Positions 125 to 55,577 of a stretch of DNA of 64,000 nt are shown here, piece after piece (the first letter of the stretch is position 1; the number at the start of each line of letters is the position of its first letter). The stretch comes from Pseudarthrobacter sp. NamE2 (lineage in GTDB: Bacteria > Actinomycetota > Actinomycetes > Actinomycetales > Micrococcaceae), in contig NZ_VAHN01000005.1 in NCBI RefSeq assembly GCF_005796205.1, positions 124,001 through 188,000 on the forward strand, written 5' to 3'. The position numbers were made by a program, and so were the translations under genes. Below the pieces are notes generated by a model that was not told where the DNA came from, made no database searches, and saw only the letters and a program-made list of their open reading frames with translations.

Positions 125-1213
125 ATGGAACTTCCCGTGATGCCGCCCGTCCCGCCCATGCTCGCCAAATCCGTCAGCGGCATTGACGGCATCCCGGCAG
201 GAGGCGGCCTCAGCTACGAGCCCAAATGGGACGGCTTCCGCTCCATCATCTTCCGCGACGGTGATGACGTGGAGATCGGCAGCCGCAACGAAAAACCCAT
301 GACGCGCTACTTCCCCGAACTCGTGGCGGCGTTCAAGGAGAACCTGCCGCCGCGGTGCGTGATCGACGGCGAGATCGTCCTGGTGGGTGCCTCCGGCGAC
401 CGGCTGGACTTCGACGCCCTGCAGCAGCGCATCCACCCCGCCGCGAGCCGGGTCAAGCTCCTGGCCCAGCAGACCCCGGCGTCCTTCGTGGCGTTCGATC
501 TCCTGGCGCTGGACGATGACGACTACACCGGCCGGCCCTTCTCGGAACGCCGGGCGGCGCTGGAAAAGGCGCTCGCAGCTTCCAAAGCCCCGATTCATTT
601 GACGGCCGCCACCACGGATAAGGACACCGCCGGGCAGTGGTTCAACCAGTTCGAGGGCGCGGGGCTGGACGGCATCGTAGCCAAGCGCGTGGACGGCCGG
701 TATGAGCCGGACAGGCGGGTGATGTTCAAGGTCAAGCATGAGCGCACCGCGGACTGCGTGGTGGCTGGTTACCGGCTGCACAAGAGCGGGCCGGACAGCA
801 TCGGTTCGCTGCTCCTGGGTTTGTACAAGGACGACGGCGGCCTGGCCAGCGTGGGAGTGATCGGCGCCTTCCCGATGAAGAAGCGCAAGGAATTGTTCGA
901 GCAGCTGCAGCCGCTGGTGACCGACTTTGAGGGGCACCCGTGGGCGTGGGGCAAGCAGGAGGAGGGCGAACGGACGCCGCGGAACGCCGAAGGCAGCCGC
1001 TGGAGCGCCGGAAAGGATCTGTCCTTCGTGCCGCTGCGGCCGGAGCTGGTGGTGGAGGTCCGGTACGACCACATGGAGGGCGACCGGTTCCGGCATACCG
1101 CCCAGTTCAACCGCTGGCGGCCGGACCGGGAACCCGAATCCTGCACCTACGCCCAGCTCGAGGAGCCGGTCAACTTCGACCTGGCCGAGGTGCTGGAGAC
1201 CGGGCGCCGCTAG
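125..1213 (+). CDS. ligC: ATP-dependent DNA ligase, LigC type
   Basis: The protein has 362 aa. The nucleotidyltransferase motif KWDGFR places the adenylated lysine at K34, followed by a DGEIV motif (motif III area), a DGIVAKR motif (motif IV) and KVKHERTADCVV (motif V), then an OB-fold domain in the last ~150 residues. The N-terminal start MELPVMPPVPPMLAKSV fits mycobacterial LigC, which supports the ATG at 125 over the ATG at 140. LigC enzymes seal nicks in backup and base-excision repair. No LigD polymerase or nuclease domain and no Ku gene are present here, so this is a stand-alone ligase. It converges on the ABC ATPase gene with a 13-nt gap. Confidence 0.93.
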   Translation: MELPVMPPVPPMLAKSVSGIDGIPAGGGLSYEPKWDGFRSIIFRDGDDVEIGSRNEKPMTRYFPELVAAFKENLPPRCVIDGEIVLVGASGDRLDFDALQQRIHPAASRVKLLAQQTPASFVAFDLLALDDDDYTGRPFSERRAALEKALAASKAPIHLTAATTDKDTAGQWFNQFEGAGLDGIVAKRVDGRYEPDRRVMFKVKHERTADCVVAGYRLHKSGPDSIGSLLLGLYKDDGGLASVGVIGAFPMKKRKELFEQLQPLVTDFEGHPWAWGKQEEGERTPRNAEGSRWSAGKDLSFVPLRPELVVEVRYDHMEGDRFRHTAQFNRWRPDREPESCTYAQLEEPVNFDLAEVLETGRR

Positions 1214-1226
1214 CTGTTCCCGCGCG

Positions 1227-2843
1227 TCAGTTTCCCCGCAGGGCCGGGTTCCTGGCGTCCAGCAGGGTCCACAGCCCGTCCGCCCGGCAGGGAATGGACG
1301 CATCCACGAGGGCCCGGCTGTGCGGGTGTTGGGGCGCCGCGAAGAAGTCGCGGGTTTCGGCGACTTCCACCACCTTGCCGTGCAGCAGGACCGCCACCCT
1401 GTCGCACATGTACCGCACCACGTCCATGTCGTGGGAAATAACGATCAGGGACAGGTTGTGCTCGCGCTGCAGGCGCAGCAGCAGGTTCAGGATGGTCCGC
1501 TGCGTCAGGGCATCCAGGGCCGAGGTGGCTTCGTCGCAAATCAGGACCTGCGGTTCCAGCAGCAGGGCGCGGGCGATGGTGGCACGCTGGAGCTGGCCGC
1601 CCGAGCACTGGCCCGGCCGCTTGTCCAGCAATAACGGGTCCAGTTCCACCTCCTGCAGGGCGGCCGCGATGCGTTCGTCCCGCTGGTCTGGGCTGAGGTC
1701 CCGGCGCGGGCGGAGGGGTGCTTGCAGGCTGGCGCGCAGCGTCATCCTCGGGTCGAAGGCGTTGTGCGGCTCCTGGAACACGAGCTGCACGGCGGTGGGC
1801 TGCCGTGTCCCGCCGTCGAACTGCCGGTTGATGGTCCCGCTGCTGGCCGCATCCAGGCCCACGATGGCCTTGGCCAGGGTGCTTTTCCCGGAGCCGGACT
1901 GGCCCAGGACACCCAGGATTTCGCCGCGGCGGAGGGACAGCGAGACGTCCTCGAGCACGGTGCCGGTCCGCTTCCGGCCGAAGCGCTTGCCCACCCTGTC
2001 CAGGACAAGGACCTCACGTTCGGCGGGGGACGGACGACGCCGGGTCTCGGGGGCCAGCTGCGCAGCGGCGAGGAGGTCGCGGGCATAGCCGGTTTTGGGC
2101 CGGGTGAGCAGCTCACCGGCGGGTCCTTCTTCCACGATGCGGCCGGCGTTCATGACCAGGACCCGGTCCGCATACGCGGCCACGGACGCCAGGTTGTGCG
2201 TGATGTAGAGGATGCCCAGTCCGCGCTGCCGGCGTTCGCGGTCCAGCAGCTGCAGCACCTGGCGCTCCAGGACCTTGTCCAGGGCGGAGGTGGGCTCATC
2301 AGCGAGGAGCATCTCCGGCTGGCCGGCCAGGGCGAGGGCCGTCATGGCCCGCTGCGCCATGCCGCCGGACAGCTGGTGCGGGTAGGCGCGGATGCCTTTG
2401 GCCGGGTCGGCGAAGCCCACCTCCGCCAGCAGCTCCACGGCCTTGTCCCTGGCCTTCCGTCCGCGCAGGCCGGCGTGCAGGCGCAGCGGCTCCTTCAGGT
2501 GGCTGCCGATGGTCCGGTTCGGGTTGAACATCCGCTTGGGCTGCTGGAACAGCATGGCCAGCCGGCCCCCGCGGACTGTGTTCAATTCGGGTTCCGCGGC
2601 GCGCGTGAGATCCAGGTCGCCGAGCCGGATGGAGCCGCCGGTGATCTGCAGTTGCGGTGGCAGCAGGCGCAGGCAGGACCTGGAGGTCAGGGTCTTTCCG
2701 GATCCCGAAGAGCCCACCAGCGCAACAAACTCGCCCGGATCAACGGCGAGGGAAACTCCGGCGAGGAGCGGCTTTCCGCCGGGACCGCCGTCGTCGTCCT
2801 TCCGCCGTACCTCCAGGTCCTCCAAAACCAGCCGCGCACTCAT
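1227..2843 (-). CDS. Peptide/metallophore-type ABC transporter, two fused ATPase domains (DppD-DppF type)
   Basis: The protein has 538 aa. Two complete ABC ATPase domains lie in tandem: the first with Walker A GSSGSGKT at about residues 44-51 and signature LSGGM, the second with Walker A GQSGSGKS and signature CSGGQ. Fusion of the DppD-like and DppF-like subunits is common in Actinobacteria. A longer frame exists upstream, but the ATG at 2843 overlaps the permease stop as ATGA, which is the expected coupling, so I chose it. This is the last gene of the operon SBP-permease-permease-ATPase. It energises import of a small peptide, nickel-like or metallophore ligand. The iron box upstream of the operon favours a metal-linked substrate, but this is inference. 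Confidence 0.9.
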   Translation of the reverse strand: MSARLVLEDLEVRRKDDDGGPGGKPLLAGVSLAVDPGEFVALVGSSGSGKTLTSRSCLRLLPPQLQITGGSIRLGDLDLTRAAEPELNTVRGGRLAMLFQQPKRMFNPNRTIGSHLKEPLRLHAGLRGRKARDKAVELLAEVGFADPAKGIRAYPHQLSGGMAQRAMTALALAGQPEMLLADEPTSALDKVLERQVLQLLDRERRQRGLGILYITHNLASVAAYADRVLVMNAGRIVEEGPAGELLTRPKTGYARDLLAAAQLAPETRRRPSPAEREVLVLDRVGKRFGRKRTGTVLEDVSLSLRRGEILGVLGQSGSGKSTLAKAIVGLDAASSGTINRQFDGGTRQPTAVQLVFQEPHNAFDPRMTLRASLQAPLRPRRDLSPDQRDERIAAALQEVELDPLLLDKRPGQCSGGQLQRATIARALLLEPQVLICDEATSALDALTQRTILNLLLRLQREHNLSLIVISHDMDVVRYMCDRVAVLLHGKVVEVAETRDFFAAPQHPHSRALVDASIPCRADGLWTLLDARNPALRGN

Positions 2844-3670
2844 GCGTCCGCAGCCTTTGGCAGGAGCAACGGTGCCGCTGCCATGCGTGCTGCGCGCTGG
2901 CCGAGCAGCGTGACGCACAGGGCGACGGTGAAGATGACCAGCCCAGGGGCCAGGATGCCCAGCGGTGCGCGGTCGGCGAAGGGCTGGGCGGCGGCGAGCA
3001 TGGAACCCCAGTCGGACTGCGGCGGCTGGACGCCCAGGCCAAGGTAGGAGAGGGCGCCCACGCTGATCAGCAGGTGCCCGAACCGCAGGGTGGCCTGGCC
3101 CAGGATCGGCGCGGCCAGGTGGGGGAGGACATGCCGGAAGATGATGAAGCGCGGGGTACAGCCCAGTACGCGGGCAGCGTCCACAAAGCCGCGGGCCGAG
3201 ACGTCGTACGCCAGCGTGCGTGCCAGCCGGGCGAAGGGCGTCCAGCCGGTGACGGTGAGTGCCAGCAGGAGCGGGCCGAACCCCGTCCCGAGTGCTGCCA
3301 CGATGAACAGCGCCACCACCATTTCCGGCAGGGCGAGCAGGACGTCGTTGGTGCGGGTGAGGAACTCGTCCACCCAGCCGCGCCGGCGGGCGCTCAGGAT
3401 GCCGATGCCGACGCCCAGCAGGCAGGTGAGCACGGTGGCCAGCGCTGCCACGGACATGGAGAACGCGCCGCCCTCGAGGATCCGGCTCAGGGTGTCGCGG
3501 CCCAGGTTGTCCGTGCCCAGCCAGTGTTCGGCCGACGGCGGCGCGAGGCGCTGCGCCAGGTTCTGTTCCGCGGGCGGATAGGGCGAGATCCAGGGCGCCA
3601 GCAGCACCGCCAGGATGATCAGTGCAAGTACTGCTCCGGCGACGGTGGTGACGGTGATCCGGCTACGCAA
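2840..3670 (-). CDS. ABC transporter permease, DppC/OppC type
   Basis: The protein has 276 aa with about six hydrophobic segments. The N-terminal helix runs at residues 8-30, followed by the usual short periplasmic stretch with HWLGTDNLGRD, a DppC-type signature, and a BPD_transp_1 domain whose EAA-like loop follows the segment GWTPFARLAR. Translation appears to start at TTG 3670, with GGGAGG six bases upstream, and the gene overlaps the preceding permease by 8 nt. The stop overlaps the ATPase start as ATGA. It forms half of the membrane channel of the importer. Confidence 0.88.
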   Translation of the reverse strand: MRSRITVTTVAGAVLALIILAVLLAPWISPYPPAEQNLAQRLAPPSAEHWLGTDNLGRDTLSRILEGGAFSMSVAALATVLTCLLGVGIGILSARRRGWVDEFLTRTNDVLLALPEMVVALFIVAALGTGFGPLLLALTVTGWTPFARLARTLAYDVSARGFVDAARVLGCTPRFIIFRHVLPHLAAPILGQATLRFGHLLISVGALSYLGLGVQPPQSDWGSMLAAAQPFADRAPLGILAPGLVIFTVALCVTLLGQRAARMAAAPLLLPKAADA

Positions 3671-4604
3671 GGGAACCTCCCACGGTGGGGCTCAGGAAGC
3701 GGTGCACGAAGTCGGCCAGCGTGGTGACGCCGACGGCAAGCGCCACGACCAGCACTACGCCGCCCTGGGCGAGCGGAATGTCGCTGTTGACCAGCGAATC
3801 GAAGAGCAGCCTGCCCATGCCCGGAACGGCGAAGATCACCTCTACGATCACCGAGCCGCCCAGCAGTCCCGCGAACCAGACCGCGAAGAGCGTGGACAGC
3901 GGAACCAGTCCGTTGGGGATGACGTGCCGCAGGACGGACTGGGCGGAGCTCAGGCCGCGGGCCCGCGCCGCCGGGACGTGCTCCGCCGCAGCAGCGTCGA
4001 TGATGCCCGCGCGGACCGCCGACGTAAAGAAGCTGATGGGGCGCAGGGCAAGGGTCAGGGCCGGCAGCACCGCGGACGAAAGATCGTTCCACCCTGCTGT
4101 GGGCAGCACGGACAGCTTGAGTGCGAACACCAGGACCAGCACCGGCGCCACCCAGTATTCCGGCATGGCGATGAAAGCCTGGGTGACCGCCGTGATGGCC
4201 TTGTCCGGGAGGCTGCCGGGCCGGAGTCCGGAGATAATCCCCAGCGGAAGCGCGACGGCGGCTGCCAGTCCCAGCGACATGGCCACCAGGCTGAGGGTGA
4301 CGGCAAGCGCGGGCAGGACCTGCTCCGCAACCGGGGTGCGGCTGCTGTAGGACAGCCCCATGTCCCCGGTGAAGAAGTTGCCCAGCCAGCGGAAGTACTG
4401 GACGGCAAGGGGGTCGTCCAGGCCCAGGCTTTGCGCCACGGCGTGGACGGAGGACTCGTCGATGGCGTCCCCGGCCACCCGGGACCGGATGATTTTCCGG
4501 ACCGGGTCGCCGGGGGTGACGTAGGGGATAAGGAACACCGCAAAGGAGGACACGGCGACGGCGGCCAGCAGCGTGGCCGTCCGCTTGGTGATGAACTGCA
4601 GCAT
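3663..4604 (-). CDS. ABC transporter permease, DppB/OppB type
   Basis: The protein has 313 aa. It begins MLQFITKRTATLLAAVAVSS, typical of DppB N-termini, followed by PGDPVRKI (the conserved PGDP motif of this family) and a BPD_transp_1 domain with RARGLSSAQSVLRHVIPN, the EAA loop that docks to the ATPase. Six transmembrane helices are expected. It lies 24 nt downstream of the binding-protein gene and overlaps the next permease, so it sits inside one operon. The substrate cannot be read from the permease. Confidence 0.9.
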   Translation of the reverse strand: MLQFITKRTATLLAAVAVSSFAVFLIPYVTPGDPVRKIIRSRVAGDAIDESSVHAVAQSLGLDDPLAVQYFRWLGNFFTGDMGLSYSSRTPVAEQVLPALAVTLSLVAMSLGLAAAVALPLGIISGLRPGSLPDKAITAVTQAFIAMPEYWVAPVLVLVFALKLSVLPTAGWNDLSSAVLPALTLALRPISFFTSAVRAGIIDAAAAEHVPAARARGLSSAQSVLRHVIPNGLVPLSTLFAVWFAGLLGGSVIVEVIFAVPGMGRLLFDSLVNSDIPLAQGGVVLVVALAVGVTTLADFVHRFLSPTVGGSLA

Positions 4605-4628
4605 GCGGTGTTGTTCCAGTGGCTGGGG

Positions 4629-6185
4629 CTAGGAGGCGGCCTTGGCCGTCTTCGCCGTCAGGACGTAGCGGGACAGCGGATCCTGGACGTAGTTCAGGAC
4701 GTTGGTGCGGATGGCGTCGGTGGCCTGCTCATTGACCAGCCAGGCGTTGACCGCCTTGTCCTGGAGGATCCTGCCTGCCTCGGCGTACAGCTTGTAGCGT
4801 TCCTGGGTGTCCACTGTCCTGGCGGCGTCGGCGACGATCCGGTCATACTCGGGATCGCAGAAGTGGCTCAGGTTGTAGGTGCCCTTGCAGGTGTAGTCCG
4901 CGGTGAGGAAGCCGATGGGATCGGCGATGTCGATCAGGCGGTTCCGCTGGCTGAGCAGCATGTCGTAGTTGCCGGCCAGGACGTCAGGCTCGGCGGATGC
5001 GTATTCCTTGGCCTGGATTGACAGCGGGATGCCGATGTTTTTCAGGTTCTCCTGGATGACCGCGGCCACGTCGGCGAATTCCGCGCGTTCCACGATGGCG
5101 ATGATTTCCAGCGGGCGGTCGGCCGTGTAGCCGGCGCTGGCCAGCAGCTTCTTGGCTTCCTCGACGTCCTGCTTCTGCTCCTCCGGGGTGTCACCGGCCC
5201 AGGGTTCGGACGGGGCAAACGGGCCCGTGGCGGGAAGGGCGGCGCCTTCGTAGACGCTGGCTGCGAGGGCATCCAGGTCCAGTGACTCGCGGATCGCCTT
5301 CCGGACGTCCACATTGTCCAGGGGAGCGCGGCCGTTGTTCATGTACAGGGTGGCGGTGCGGGGTGAATCGGCGCCGAGGACGGAGACGCCTGCAGCGCCC
5401 TTCAGGGTAGCCAGGCTGGCGACGGGGATGGACAGCGATATGTCGGCTTCACCGGTCTGCACCTGGGCTGCACGGGTTGCACCGTTGGTGATGAAGCGGA
5501 TCTCGGCCCCCGCGAGCTGGACGTCGCCGCCCCAGTAGTTCTCGTTGCGGTCCAGGGTGAGGGACTGCTTGGCCTTTTCGGAGACGGGGGTGAACGGGCC
5601 GGTGCAGTGGCCGAACGGGTCCACCTCCGTGTCCTTGTACGCGGCCGGGGCCAGGATGCCGGTGTTGACGCTCGCCAGGCGGTAGGGGACCAGCGGGTTT
5701 TCGGCCGGCGTGCTGACCCGGACGGTGTTGGCGTCCACCGCGGTGACGCTGCTGACCATGGTGCGGTTGAAGGCGCGGGCCGGGACCTTGGCGTCGAGGA
5801 CGTGGTTCAGGGCTGCAACCACGGACTCCGCCGTGAGCTGGTTGCCGTCCTGGAAAACCACGCCCTGCCGGATGGTGAAGTCCCAGTCCAGCGGGGAGGA
5901 CTGCTTCCACTCGCTGGCCAGCATGGGAACCACCTTGCCCTCGGTATGGTCGTACTTCGTGAGGGTCTCCAGGCACCCGGAGAGGGAAAGGATGTACGCG
6001 GCGTCGGATTCCAGGGCCCAGTTGGCCACCGGTGCGCGGAAGTTGTCCACTACGATCCGCTGGCTGGTGTCCGCCGCGGCGGTACTCTGGACGGCCTGGG
6101 TCTGCGTGCCGCTGAAGCCGCAGCCGGTCAGGGTGAGGGTGGCCAGTGCTGCCACGAGGACGCGGGGCCGGAGGAACGAGCGCAC
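4629..6185 (-). CDS. ABC transporter substrate-binding lipoprotein, SBP_bac_5 family
   Basis: About 518 aa from the proposed GTG at 6185. That start gives MRSFLRPRVLVAALATLTLT and then the lipobox LTGC, a lipoprotein signal, and has AAGGCGG seven bases upstream. An upstream TTG at 6227 would add a non-signal-like extension, so I reject it. The mature part is family 5 (dipeptide, oligopeptide, nickel, metallophore binding), with YDHTEGKVVPMLASEW and a WTF-like strand near the start. It is the first gene of the operon and should be anchored outside the membrane to hand substrate to the two permeases. An IdeR-like box lies 55-73 nt upstream of the start. Confidence 0.88.
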   Translation of the reverse strand: MRSFLRPRVLVAALATLTLTGCGFSGTQTQAVQSTAAADTSQRIVVDNFRAPVANWALESDAAYILSLSGCLETLTKYDHTEGKVVPMLASEWKQSSPLDWDFTIRQGVVFQDGNQLTAESVVAALNHVLDAKVPARAFNRTMVSSVTAVDANTVRVSTPAENPLVPYRLASVNTGILAPAAYKDTEVDPFGHCTGPFTPVSEKAKQSLTLDRNENYWGGDVQLAGAEIRFITNGATRAAQVQTGEADISLSIPVASLATLKGAAGVSVLGADSPRTATLYMNNGRAPLDNVDVRKAIRESLDLDALAASVYEGAALPATGPFAPSEPWAGDTPEEQKQDVEEAKKLLASAGYTADRPLEIIAIVERAEFADVAAVIQENLKNIGIPLSIQAKEYASAEPDVLAGNYDMLLSQRNRLIDIADPIGFLTADYTCKGTYNLSHFCDPEYDRIVADAARTVDTQERYKLYAEAGRILQDKAVNAWLVNEQATDAIRTNVLNYVQDPLSRYVLTAKTAKAAS

Positions 6186-6239
6186 AAAAAACCGCCTTGC
6201 AGGGCTGCCATGGGTAGGGCAAATCAAAATGGGGACTAC

Positions 6240-6258
6240 TTAGGGTAGGCTCACCTTC
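6240..6258. promoter_or_regulatory. IdeR/DtxR-like iron box upstream of the family-5 importer
   Basis: The plus-strand sequence TTAGGGTAGGCTCACCTTC matches 15 of 19 positions of the known IdeR/DtxR consensus TTAGGTTAGGCTAACCTAA, including the central TAGGCT core and the ACCT half. It lies in the 5' region of the minus-strand importer operon. By analogy with known iron boxes, the iron-loaded repressor would block transcription here. Confidence 0.6.
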
Positions 6259-6443
6259 CGCAAAAAATGGAATCGGTGCCGCAGGCAACTCGCAGATGAC
6301 GCCCACTACCCTTGGTCCCGGCCGCTGCGCGCCAACTCCCGCCTGTGATGCGCACGGGCAGCCCCTGCACATTCAACCCCGGATTCATTGCGCGGGCCGC
6401 TGGAGCCTTGTCCCGGCATGACCTGCCAGGCAGACTGTGGTTC

Positions 6444-6764
6444 ATGGCCACCGAGCACGACGTCCGCAGGATCTCCCTGGAGCTGCCCGGCGTGACCGAG
6501 CGGCCAAGCTGGGGGCAGCCGGCGTGGTTCGCGAAGACCCTCATGGCCCGGATATGGGAACCTGGCGTCGTGACGGTCAAGACAGAGGAGCGGGAGGCCC
6601 TGGCGGGAACAGATCCGGACACCTTTTACTGGACCCCCCATCATGAGCGCTCTTCCCAGCTCGTCCTGGTCCGGCTGGACCGGATCGACGAGGCACTCCT
6701 CGCTGAATTGCTGCTGGACTCCTACCGCATCGCCGGCGGGGCAGGCTTAAGCGGCAGCAGGTAA
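6444..6764 (+). CDS. MmcQ/YjbR family protein
   Basis: A small protein of 106 aa. The order ATEHDVRRISLELPGVTE, then PSWGQPAWFAKTLMARIWE, then a C-terminal helix DEALLAELLLDSYRIA matches the YjbR/MmcQ fold (CyaY-like double wing), a family proposed to bind DNA but with no established role. The frame is open further upstream from 6312, but the ATG at 6444 gives the family's usual start. It stands alone between the importer promoter and the pnt operon. Confidence 0.8.
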   Translation: MATEHDVRRISLELPGVTERPSWGQPAWFAKTLMARIWEPGVVTVKTEEREALAGTDPDTFYWTPHHERSSQLVLVRLDRIDEALLAELLLDSYRIAGGAGLSGSR

Positions 6765-55318: not shown

Positions 55319-55577
55319 GATCTCTCCCGCTTCGGGCGTCCTGGGCGTACCCACCGCTGCCGACGTCAAGACAGAGGGAAGCCACGGCGAGGCCGTCTCC
55401 TTTGAATACATCAAGCAGGTCAACCACGACATCCTGTACGTCATCAACCGCGACGTTGCGACCGGCGGGGACGCCTCGGCAGCCAACCCGCTGCTGGACA
55501 ACGAGCTGGTGCAGTCCACCAACGCCGCCAAGGACAAACACGTTACGGACGACGTTCCCGAACTGTCCTGCCCCTGA
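55319..55577 (+). pseudogene. C-terminal relic of a siderophore-binding ABC lipoprotein
   Basis: About 85 codons with no start codon, ending in a TGA at 55575-55577. The reading GVPTAADVKTEGSHGEAVSF, then YVINRDVATGGDASAANPLL and DNELVQSTNAAKDKHVTDD resembles the end of catecholate/petrobactin siderophore-binding proteins such as CeuE/YclQ, where VSFE..., ..DRD and LDNELV are characteristic. The N-terminal two thirds are missing and no permease or ATPase follows. It begins directly behind the terminator of mtlD, so it probably is a deletion remnant. Confidence 0.7.

Follow-up and report, generated by a model that had tools for sequence, protein, structure and literature searches.

Repression by iron-loaded IdeR, acting at a 19-bp site at 6240–6258, is predicted for the four-gene ABC importer operon of the peptide/nickel type in Pseudarthrobacter sp. 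NamE2, which likely imports chelator-bound iron when iron is scarce; to this reading we give a probability of roughly 0.6. Chelator-bound iron, rather than food peptides, is the likely cargo because the conserved site matches the box of the iron repressor. The parts of this reading differ in strength: IdeR-type regulation of the operon is very probable, a metal chelate as cargo is a good deal less certain yet still favoured, and the organism's own siderophore as that chelate is a tentative, rather doubtful identification. The window analysed is the whole stretch of 64,000 nucleotides, and coordinates without a locus name refer to it.

Architecture of the importer operon

The operon and its upstream site comprise the following features:

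6240..6258, no strand assigned: box TTAGGGTAGGCTCACCTTC, IdeR/DtxR-type, 54 bp upstream of the binding-protein start
4629..6185, minus strand: lipoprotein solute-binding protein, SBP_bac_5, with an LTGC lipobox (by eye) and residues R367, R416 and D419
3663..4604, minus strand: permease 1, NikB/OppB-like (PF00528, 115.3 bits; PF19300), 24 bp past the binding-protein gene
2840..3670, minus strand: permease 2, NikC/OppC-like (PF00528, 108 bits; PF12911), with an 8-bp overlap with permease 1
1227..2843, minus strand: fused double ATPase, NikD-NikE type, likely ATG start at 2843 (the listed ORF reaches a GTG at 2918)

An SBP_bac_5 lipoprotein (start at 6185; PF00496, 264.7 bits), two BPD_transp_1 permeases and two ATPase domains place the system in the class of peptide/nickel-type ABC importers. 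A start of the fused ATPase at 2843 would give a 4-bp overlap with the stop of permease 2. Scanned as 1230–2918, the ATPase exceeds the cut-offs of both the NikD model TIGR02770 (399.2 bits, cut-off 318.7) and the NikE model TIGR02769 (358.8 bits, cut-off 332.55). The operon is read as four genes (6185 to 1227, minus strand) because plus-strand ORFs flank it on both sides: the upstream neighbour is a YjbR-domain ORF, and the ORF from 125 to 1213 points toward the operon's end. A sigma-70 promoter scan of 900–6450 found none. Elsewhere in the window, 55335–55550 (G000:C45:179335–179550) gives a weak partial match to Peripla_BP_2 (23.2 bits, under the family cut-off).

An IdeR-type box upstream of the operon

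The site at 6240–6258 agrees with the IdeR/DtxR consensus TTAGGTTAGGCTAACCTAA at 15 of 19 positions; the IdeR consensus TTAGGTTAGSCTAACCTAA and IdeR–DNA structures are described in excerpts of PMC8464063. The earlier note's account of a 19-bp site with this degree of agreement, located 5' of an SBP_bac_5 operon, is confirmed by the letters themselves, by the PF00496 match and by the position of the box 54 bp from the start. With the core TTAGGNTAGNCTNACCT and up to two mismatches, the box is the sole match in the window, where shuffled sequences lead one to expect 0.07. Across the 4.04 Mb genome, the looser pattern TWAGGNNAGSCTNNCCTWA with up to two mismatches returns 8 sites, and its reversed control returns 7. 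In this loose scan, motif score alone does not set the box apart from the genome background, and on score alone the earlier note's check against random genome sites gives no clear separation. The perfect palindrome, searched for with up to 3 mismatches, has no match in the genome.

Four of the 8 genome sites belong to the importer operon and to three genes of iron-uptake type. One of the three lies at the 5' end of a siderophore-interacting protein gene (PF08021, PF04954), another at the 5' end of an SBP_bac_6 binding-protein gene whose product, from its sequence, would be of Fe(III) type, and the third at the 5' end of a FhuD/FecB-type binding-protein gene (PF01497), followed by a FecCD permease.

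The genome encodes two DtxR-family proteins. The product of L002:1309–2001 is an IdeR, with S. erythraea IdeR (7b1v) as its best match (E 7.6e-76), M. tuberculosis IdeR at E 5.7e-71 and an intact SGPTVSQT helix; the second protein is nearer to other metalloregulators. Binding of IdeR to 6240–6258 is predicted. A scan for a Zur-like 15-mer across the upstream 400 bp of 58 loci (L029–L086) gave nothing better than 11/15, and dual Zur control as in C. diphtheriae was rejected for the 58 loci tested.

Conservation of the box among relatives

Within the genus, the importer has a patchy distribution, with an orthologue in 11 of 37 genomes (the window's own, and 10 of the 36 others at 73–91% identity). 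All 11, the own genome counted, carry an upstream box of 14–17/19. A scan of species genomes, run with 13 aligned homologues, yielded 255 confirmed relatives; the best 80 (79 loci) were kept, and the counts that follow cover these. Among them, a 14–17/19 box stands before the gene in 60 of 61 Micrococcaceae loci (59–92% identity), about 37–75 bp from the gene start, as estimated from the aligned start. The exception is a Nesterenkonia locus (L053), whose best site is 12/19. None of the 18 distant homologues (40–50% identity; other actinobacteria, proteobacteria and one Chloroflexota) is boxed, their best sites of 9–10/19 being background. A further family set yielded 21 new orthologues, all boxed, including L135 with a 14/19 site about 77 bp upstream; the same-genus, species-scan and 197-genome family sets may share genomes. 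That the box would be kept in related genomes, as the earlier note had proposed to check, is thereby confirmed in all three sets.

The background at the 61 loci, taken beyond −450 to +60 relative to the gene start, comprises 761,700 19-mers, of which 0 reach 14/19. Mean information over 61 rows (60 loci plus the window; L053, with its best site at 12/19, was excluded) is 1.22 bits in the box vs 0.16 and 0.26 in the flanks. It is this conservation in orthologues, not the motif score, that places the box beyond chance.

The box-bearing group, hereafter clade A, was sampled with 26 rows for a maximum-likelihood tree, in which they form one clade with support 100/100. L053 is among them, and a single gain of the box fits this topology. 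A next relative (G052, 48% identity), with a 13/19 site about 190–225 bp upstream that is perhaps a weak box, speaks against a sharp border of the box-bearing clade.

Some further occurrences were recorded. Paenarthrobacter nitroguajacolicus SM1928 holds two boxed copies of the binding-protein gene on separate contigs (L048, L083). In Occultella, the importer itself has no box, and the same locus contains IdeR-like sites of 15/19 and 14/19 (L101:999–1017 and L101:24–42) near ORFs that resemble SIP and FecB by reading. A plasmid search gave 3228 matching records, one of which, from Arthrobacter sp. StoSoilB13, exceeded 60% identity.

The binding protein and its pocket

By their models, the binding protein is neither a CntA, a NikA nor a DppA. 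It scores 96.4 bits with the CntA model NF047575 (cut-off 800), 131.9 bits with the NikA model TIGR02294 (cut-off 393) and 91.8 bits with the DppA model NF043070 (cut-off 1005); the Opp5A/NikA model NF045468 gives 246.2 bits (cut-off 600). In a fold search, the closest structures are those of S. aureus NikA (4xkr, 3rqt), and the neighbours include DppA, a glutathione-binding protein and SapA with haem; CntA is absent among the 50 fold matches listed. Ranked by sequence, 3t66 comes first and S. aureus NikA third. The PRGD stretch of these two proteins is replaced by IDIADP, which contains Asp419. No histidine in the aligned binding protein is the counterpart of NikA His416 (precursor H438), a residue whose role is given in the title of structure entry 3qim.

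The pocket looks DppA-like in sequence. R367 and D419 align with DppA R383 and D436, the residues changed in entry 8z1z, and D419 is present in 51 of 51 aligned rows. R416 has a different distribution: all 28 clade A rows have it, as against 0 of the 23 others, which are unboxed.

An MFS transporter and siderophore synthesis co-occur with the importer

A gene for a major facilitator (MFS) transporter lies in the operon flanks in 18 of 79 loci, the family having been scanned for two of the 18 by Pfam and for one more by NCBIfam. Of the 197 family genomes, 37 have the binding-protein family in either clade, and 33 of these have the MFS protein, as against 0 of the 160 others (kinship ignored); the searches scored 7–8 candidates per genome, and misses are possible. 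Its gene is within 6 kb of the importer in 28 of the 33 MFS-positive genomes, and 4 of the 37 have no MFS match. In a first set, 8 of 39 genomes have the MFS protein, and all 8 have the binding-protein family. In the own genome, the MFS gene is unlinked to the operon (G000:C62) and that locus has no IdeR box before the gene (best site 11/19). Some MFS partners (L111, L206, L209, L222) show an in-frame stop, which may point to decay of the partner in a small number of genomes.

Synthesis genes follow a similar distribution. Of 23 boxed-importer genomes (clade A being defined in the family set as identity of at least 59%), 22 have IucA/IucC synthetases, vs 58 of 174 others (Fisher p 5e-9, kinship ignored); within the genus, the counts are 10 of 11 genomes with the importer vs 9 of 26 (p 0.003, kinship ignored). 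For genomes with the sister clade only, the count is 8 of 14. G010 and G087 have the importer and no IucA/IucC. The own cluster combines IucA/IucC having an FhuF domain with a lysine/ornithine monooxygenase, a PLP decarboxylase and a GNAT acyltransferase, which we take to be the gene set of desferrioxamine-type pathways. Siderophores of that type can be linear, with an amine and a carboxylate at their ends. This cluster is preceded, at a distance of 36 bp, by two overlapping IdeR-like sites of 12/19 (L125:10777–10805), with nothing better there; an IdeR site has been reported in front of the homologous siderophore cluster of Arthrobacter arilaitensis (PMC2991359, in part).

That the importer carries a metal chelate is inferred from regulation, co-occurrence and pocket. 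The co-occurrence with IucA/IucC points to the hydroxamate siderophore of the cell itself as the best candidate ligand, whether whole or as a linear form or fragment. The siderophore may not need this importer, since the genome already has a siderophore importer of the FhuD/FecB type.

A sister clade under a Fur/Zur-like motif

The sister group, clade B, comprises 25 loci (L158–L182) with binding proteins of 32–36% identity. The operon consists of two ATPases and the binding protein, plus a permease where the fetched stretch reaches. Of the 25 loci, 13 have the MFS gene within the operon and 2 have it alongside; in the other 10 the fetched stretch does not contain it. The 12 clade B loci tested have no IdeR box ahead of the binding-protein gene (best 9–11/19). 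For a Fur/Zur-like motif (e.g. TGATAATGATTCTCATTATGA), the top-scoring place in the locus lies no more than about 220 bp ahead of the first ATPase gene in 18 of 25 loci; L158, L159 and L161 match by construction, the motif having been built from them. In 5 loci (L160, L164, L165, L171, L175) another place scores equally well, and in 2 (L169, L173) a better match lies elsewhere.

Searched in 9 clade B genomes, the pattern TGAKAATGATTMTCATTA gave 9 matches, in 5 of the 9 genomes, and the control gave 0. Four matches belong to clade B operons, four stand before Peripla_BP_2-type genes and one before a CobW-domain gene. COG0523/CobW genes are marks of Zur control. After the Peripla_BP_2 genes behind the pattern comes a staphylopine-dehydrogenase cluster in G214 and G152 (genus g44; L194:8364–15603 and L195:7006–11085), which in G214, the genome scanned for them, also includes CntK-like and CntL-like genes; G132 has a dehydrogenase match in the same region as the pattern and the Peripla_BP_2 gene, and G169 has none. 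From the genes found behind TGAKAATGATTMTCATTA, the clade B box is likely a Zur box, as read from sequence. The wider binding-protein family is tied to metals twice over, in clade A and in clade B. Actinobacterial zincophore clusters can mix peptide-type and FecCD-type importers, as stated in part of PMC7438024.

In four distant unboxed homologues (L087, L089, L092, L096; stretches of 7.4–12.2 kb), the operon includes genes for a HAD hydrolase and a DAO-type (FAD) oxidoreductase and, in 3 of the 4, GntR/FCD-type genes. These neighbours suggest catabolism of amino compounds.

A model for regulation and transport

In the proposed mechanism, iron-bound IdeR would sit on the box and hold the operon off; when iron falls, IdeR would leave the box and the operon would be transcribed. 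The lipoprotein would then take a metal chelate with an amino-acid- or peptide-like end: D419 may hold the amine, R367 the carboxylate and R416, which is specific to clade A, an additional negative charge. Import of the chelate would fall to the permease pair and the fused ATPase, and the MFS protein may export the emptied chelator. A linear siderophore piece would resemble a peptide. A more specific version is somewhat speculative, and we consider it a little less probable than the siderophore assignment itself: a dipeptide-type importer would have been converted once, at the base of a Micrococcaceae clade, by acquiring IdeR control, Arg416, the own linear hydroxamate siderophore as a peptide mimic (amine and carboxylate ends) and a dedicated MFS protein to recycle the chelator, the sister clade having done likewise for zinc under a Zur-type box.

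Alternative explanations

A chance match deserves almost no credence: the loose genome scan (8 sites vs 7 reversed) could not by itself exclude it, and it was rejected on the conservation of the box in 60 of 61, 11 of 11 and 21 of 21 orthologous loci, with no background 19-mer reaching 14/19. Import of nickel or cobalt by a NikABCDE- or Opp5A-type system under IdeR would account for the NikD and NikE scores above their cut-offs and for the S. aureus NikA structures as closest folds; the NikA and Opp5A models fall far below theirs, His416 has no counterpart and PRGD has given way to IDIADP. The nickel importer was rejected on the model cut-offs and His416, and we regard it as very improbable. 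A peptide, amino-acid or haem importer, tied to iron for metabolic reasons and carrying no chelate, is less improbable, albeit still unlikely. It would fit the retained equivalents of DppA R383 and D436, the fold neighbours DppA, glutathione-binding protein and haem-bound SapA, and the DAO-type oxidoreductase genes adjoining some unboxed relatives; against it stand the co-occurrence with the MFS protein and siderophore synthesis, the confinement of R416 to clade A and the Fur/Zur-like motif that often precedes the sister operon.

The strongest competitor, though an improbable one, keeps a metal chelate as cargo and changes its nature: the importer would carry a metallophore of the opine type or akin to nicotianamine (staphylopine class, produced by other organisms or by plants) with Fe, Zn, Ni or Co, as does CntABCDF. 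A peptide-type importer paired with an MFS protein is the architecture of staphylopine-type clusters, according to part of PMC7438024. The staphylopine-dehydrogenase clusters of G214 and G152 follow the Fur/Zur-like pattern that also precedes the sister importer, and 7 of the 8 genomes with Staph_opine_DH have the binding-protein family. Set against this, the CntA score is about an eighth of its cut-off, Staph_opine_DH (PF10100) is absent from the own genome (G000) and present in 8 of 197 family genomes, and the box is of IdeR type, with no Zur-like 15-mer above 11/15 in the 58 loci. A classical staphylopine system was rejected, the own genome being without PF10100. The earlier note had pointed to CntA-type members of the family, which take up metallophore–metal complexes; a metal chelate remains the favoured cargo, tempered by the low CntA model score and by the DppA-like look of the pocket. 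Its broader and hedged proposal, of an iron or metal response instead of peptide nutrition, gains support from the footprinting, from the IdeR gene, from the iron-type genes at 3 of the 7 other motif sites, from the co-occurrence of the MFS protein and siderophore synthesis, and from the Fur/Zur-like box of the sister clade, the ligand being deduced.

Comparison with known importers

An iron-repressed importer of the peptide/nickel type is not new as an idea, the precedent being dip2162–2165 of C. diphtheriae (ddpABCD, nikA2), likewise an actinobacterial ABC operon of the SBP_bac_5 class (NikA/OppA-like) with a DtxR-type box, as far as the sources describe it. Its promoter holds a DtxR box and a fusion is repressed by iron (sections of PMC524172 and PMC6711530), the promoter being repressed by iron and zinc (PMC6711530, in part); the operon is also listed among DtxR- and iron-repressed genes in a portion of PMC13001254. 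The likeness drawn here is one of class and regulation. The dip2162–2165 operon is, in the same partial accounts, divergent from the sidAB synthesis genes and also has Zur sites, whereas the operon described here lies away from its synthesis genes, showed no clear Zur site at the loci tested, encodes its two ATPases as one fused protein and co-occurs with an MFS protein.

S. aureus CntABCDF/CntE shares the ABC class, the MFS partner and metal control, and differs in the staphylopine dehydrogenase that the own genome lacks, in a CntA model that scores far under its cut-off here and in the IdeR-type box. S. aureus NikA/Opp5A (4xkr, 3rqt) is closest by fold and the Ni-binding protein of B. halodurans (3t66) by sequence, but the Opp5A model stays under its cut-off and IDIADP with Asp419 replaces their PRGD. 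E. coli DppA has the same Arg and Asp (R383/D436 = R367/D419), yet identity is 23%, the DppA model is far under its cut-off and R416 is clade-specific.

Significance

In the literature searched, no report of the Micrococcaceae importer as IdeR-controlled was found. By the same measure, what is new is the boxed clade across Micrococcaceae, together with its MFS partner, its tendency to occur alongside siderophore synthesis, the arginine peculiar to it and the differing Fur/Zur-like motif of its sister clade. A survey of iron genes in A. arilaitensis counts 30 genes for Fe/siderophore transport, belonging to the FecCD type and to fused siderophore-uptake kinds, and in the main-text portion of that source the words dipeptide, oligopeptide and nickel are absent (PMC2991359). 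If the proposed reading is true, an importer annotated for peptides in many soil and cheese actinobacteria would be part of their iron economy, and sister clades with differing metal-type boxes and a single distinguishing arginine would offer a direct test of how a peptide pocket changes into a metallophore pocket.
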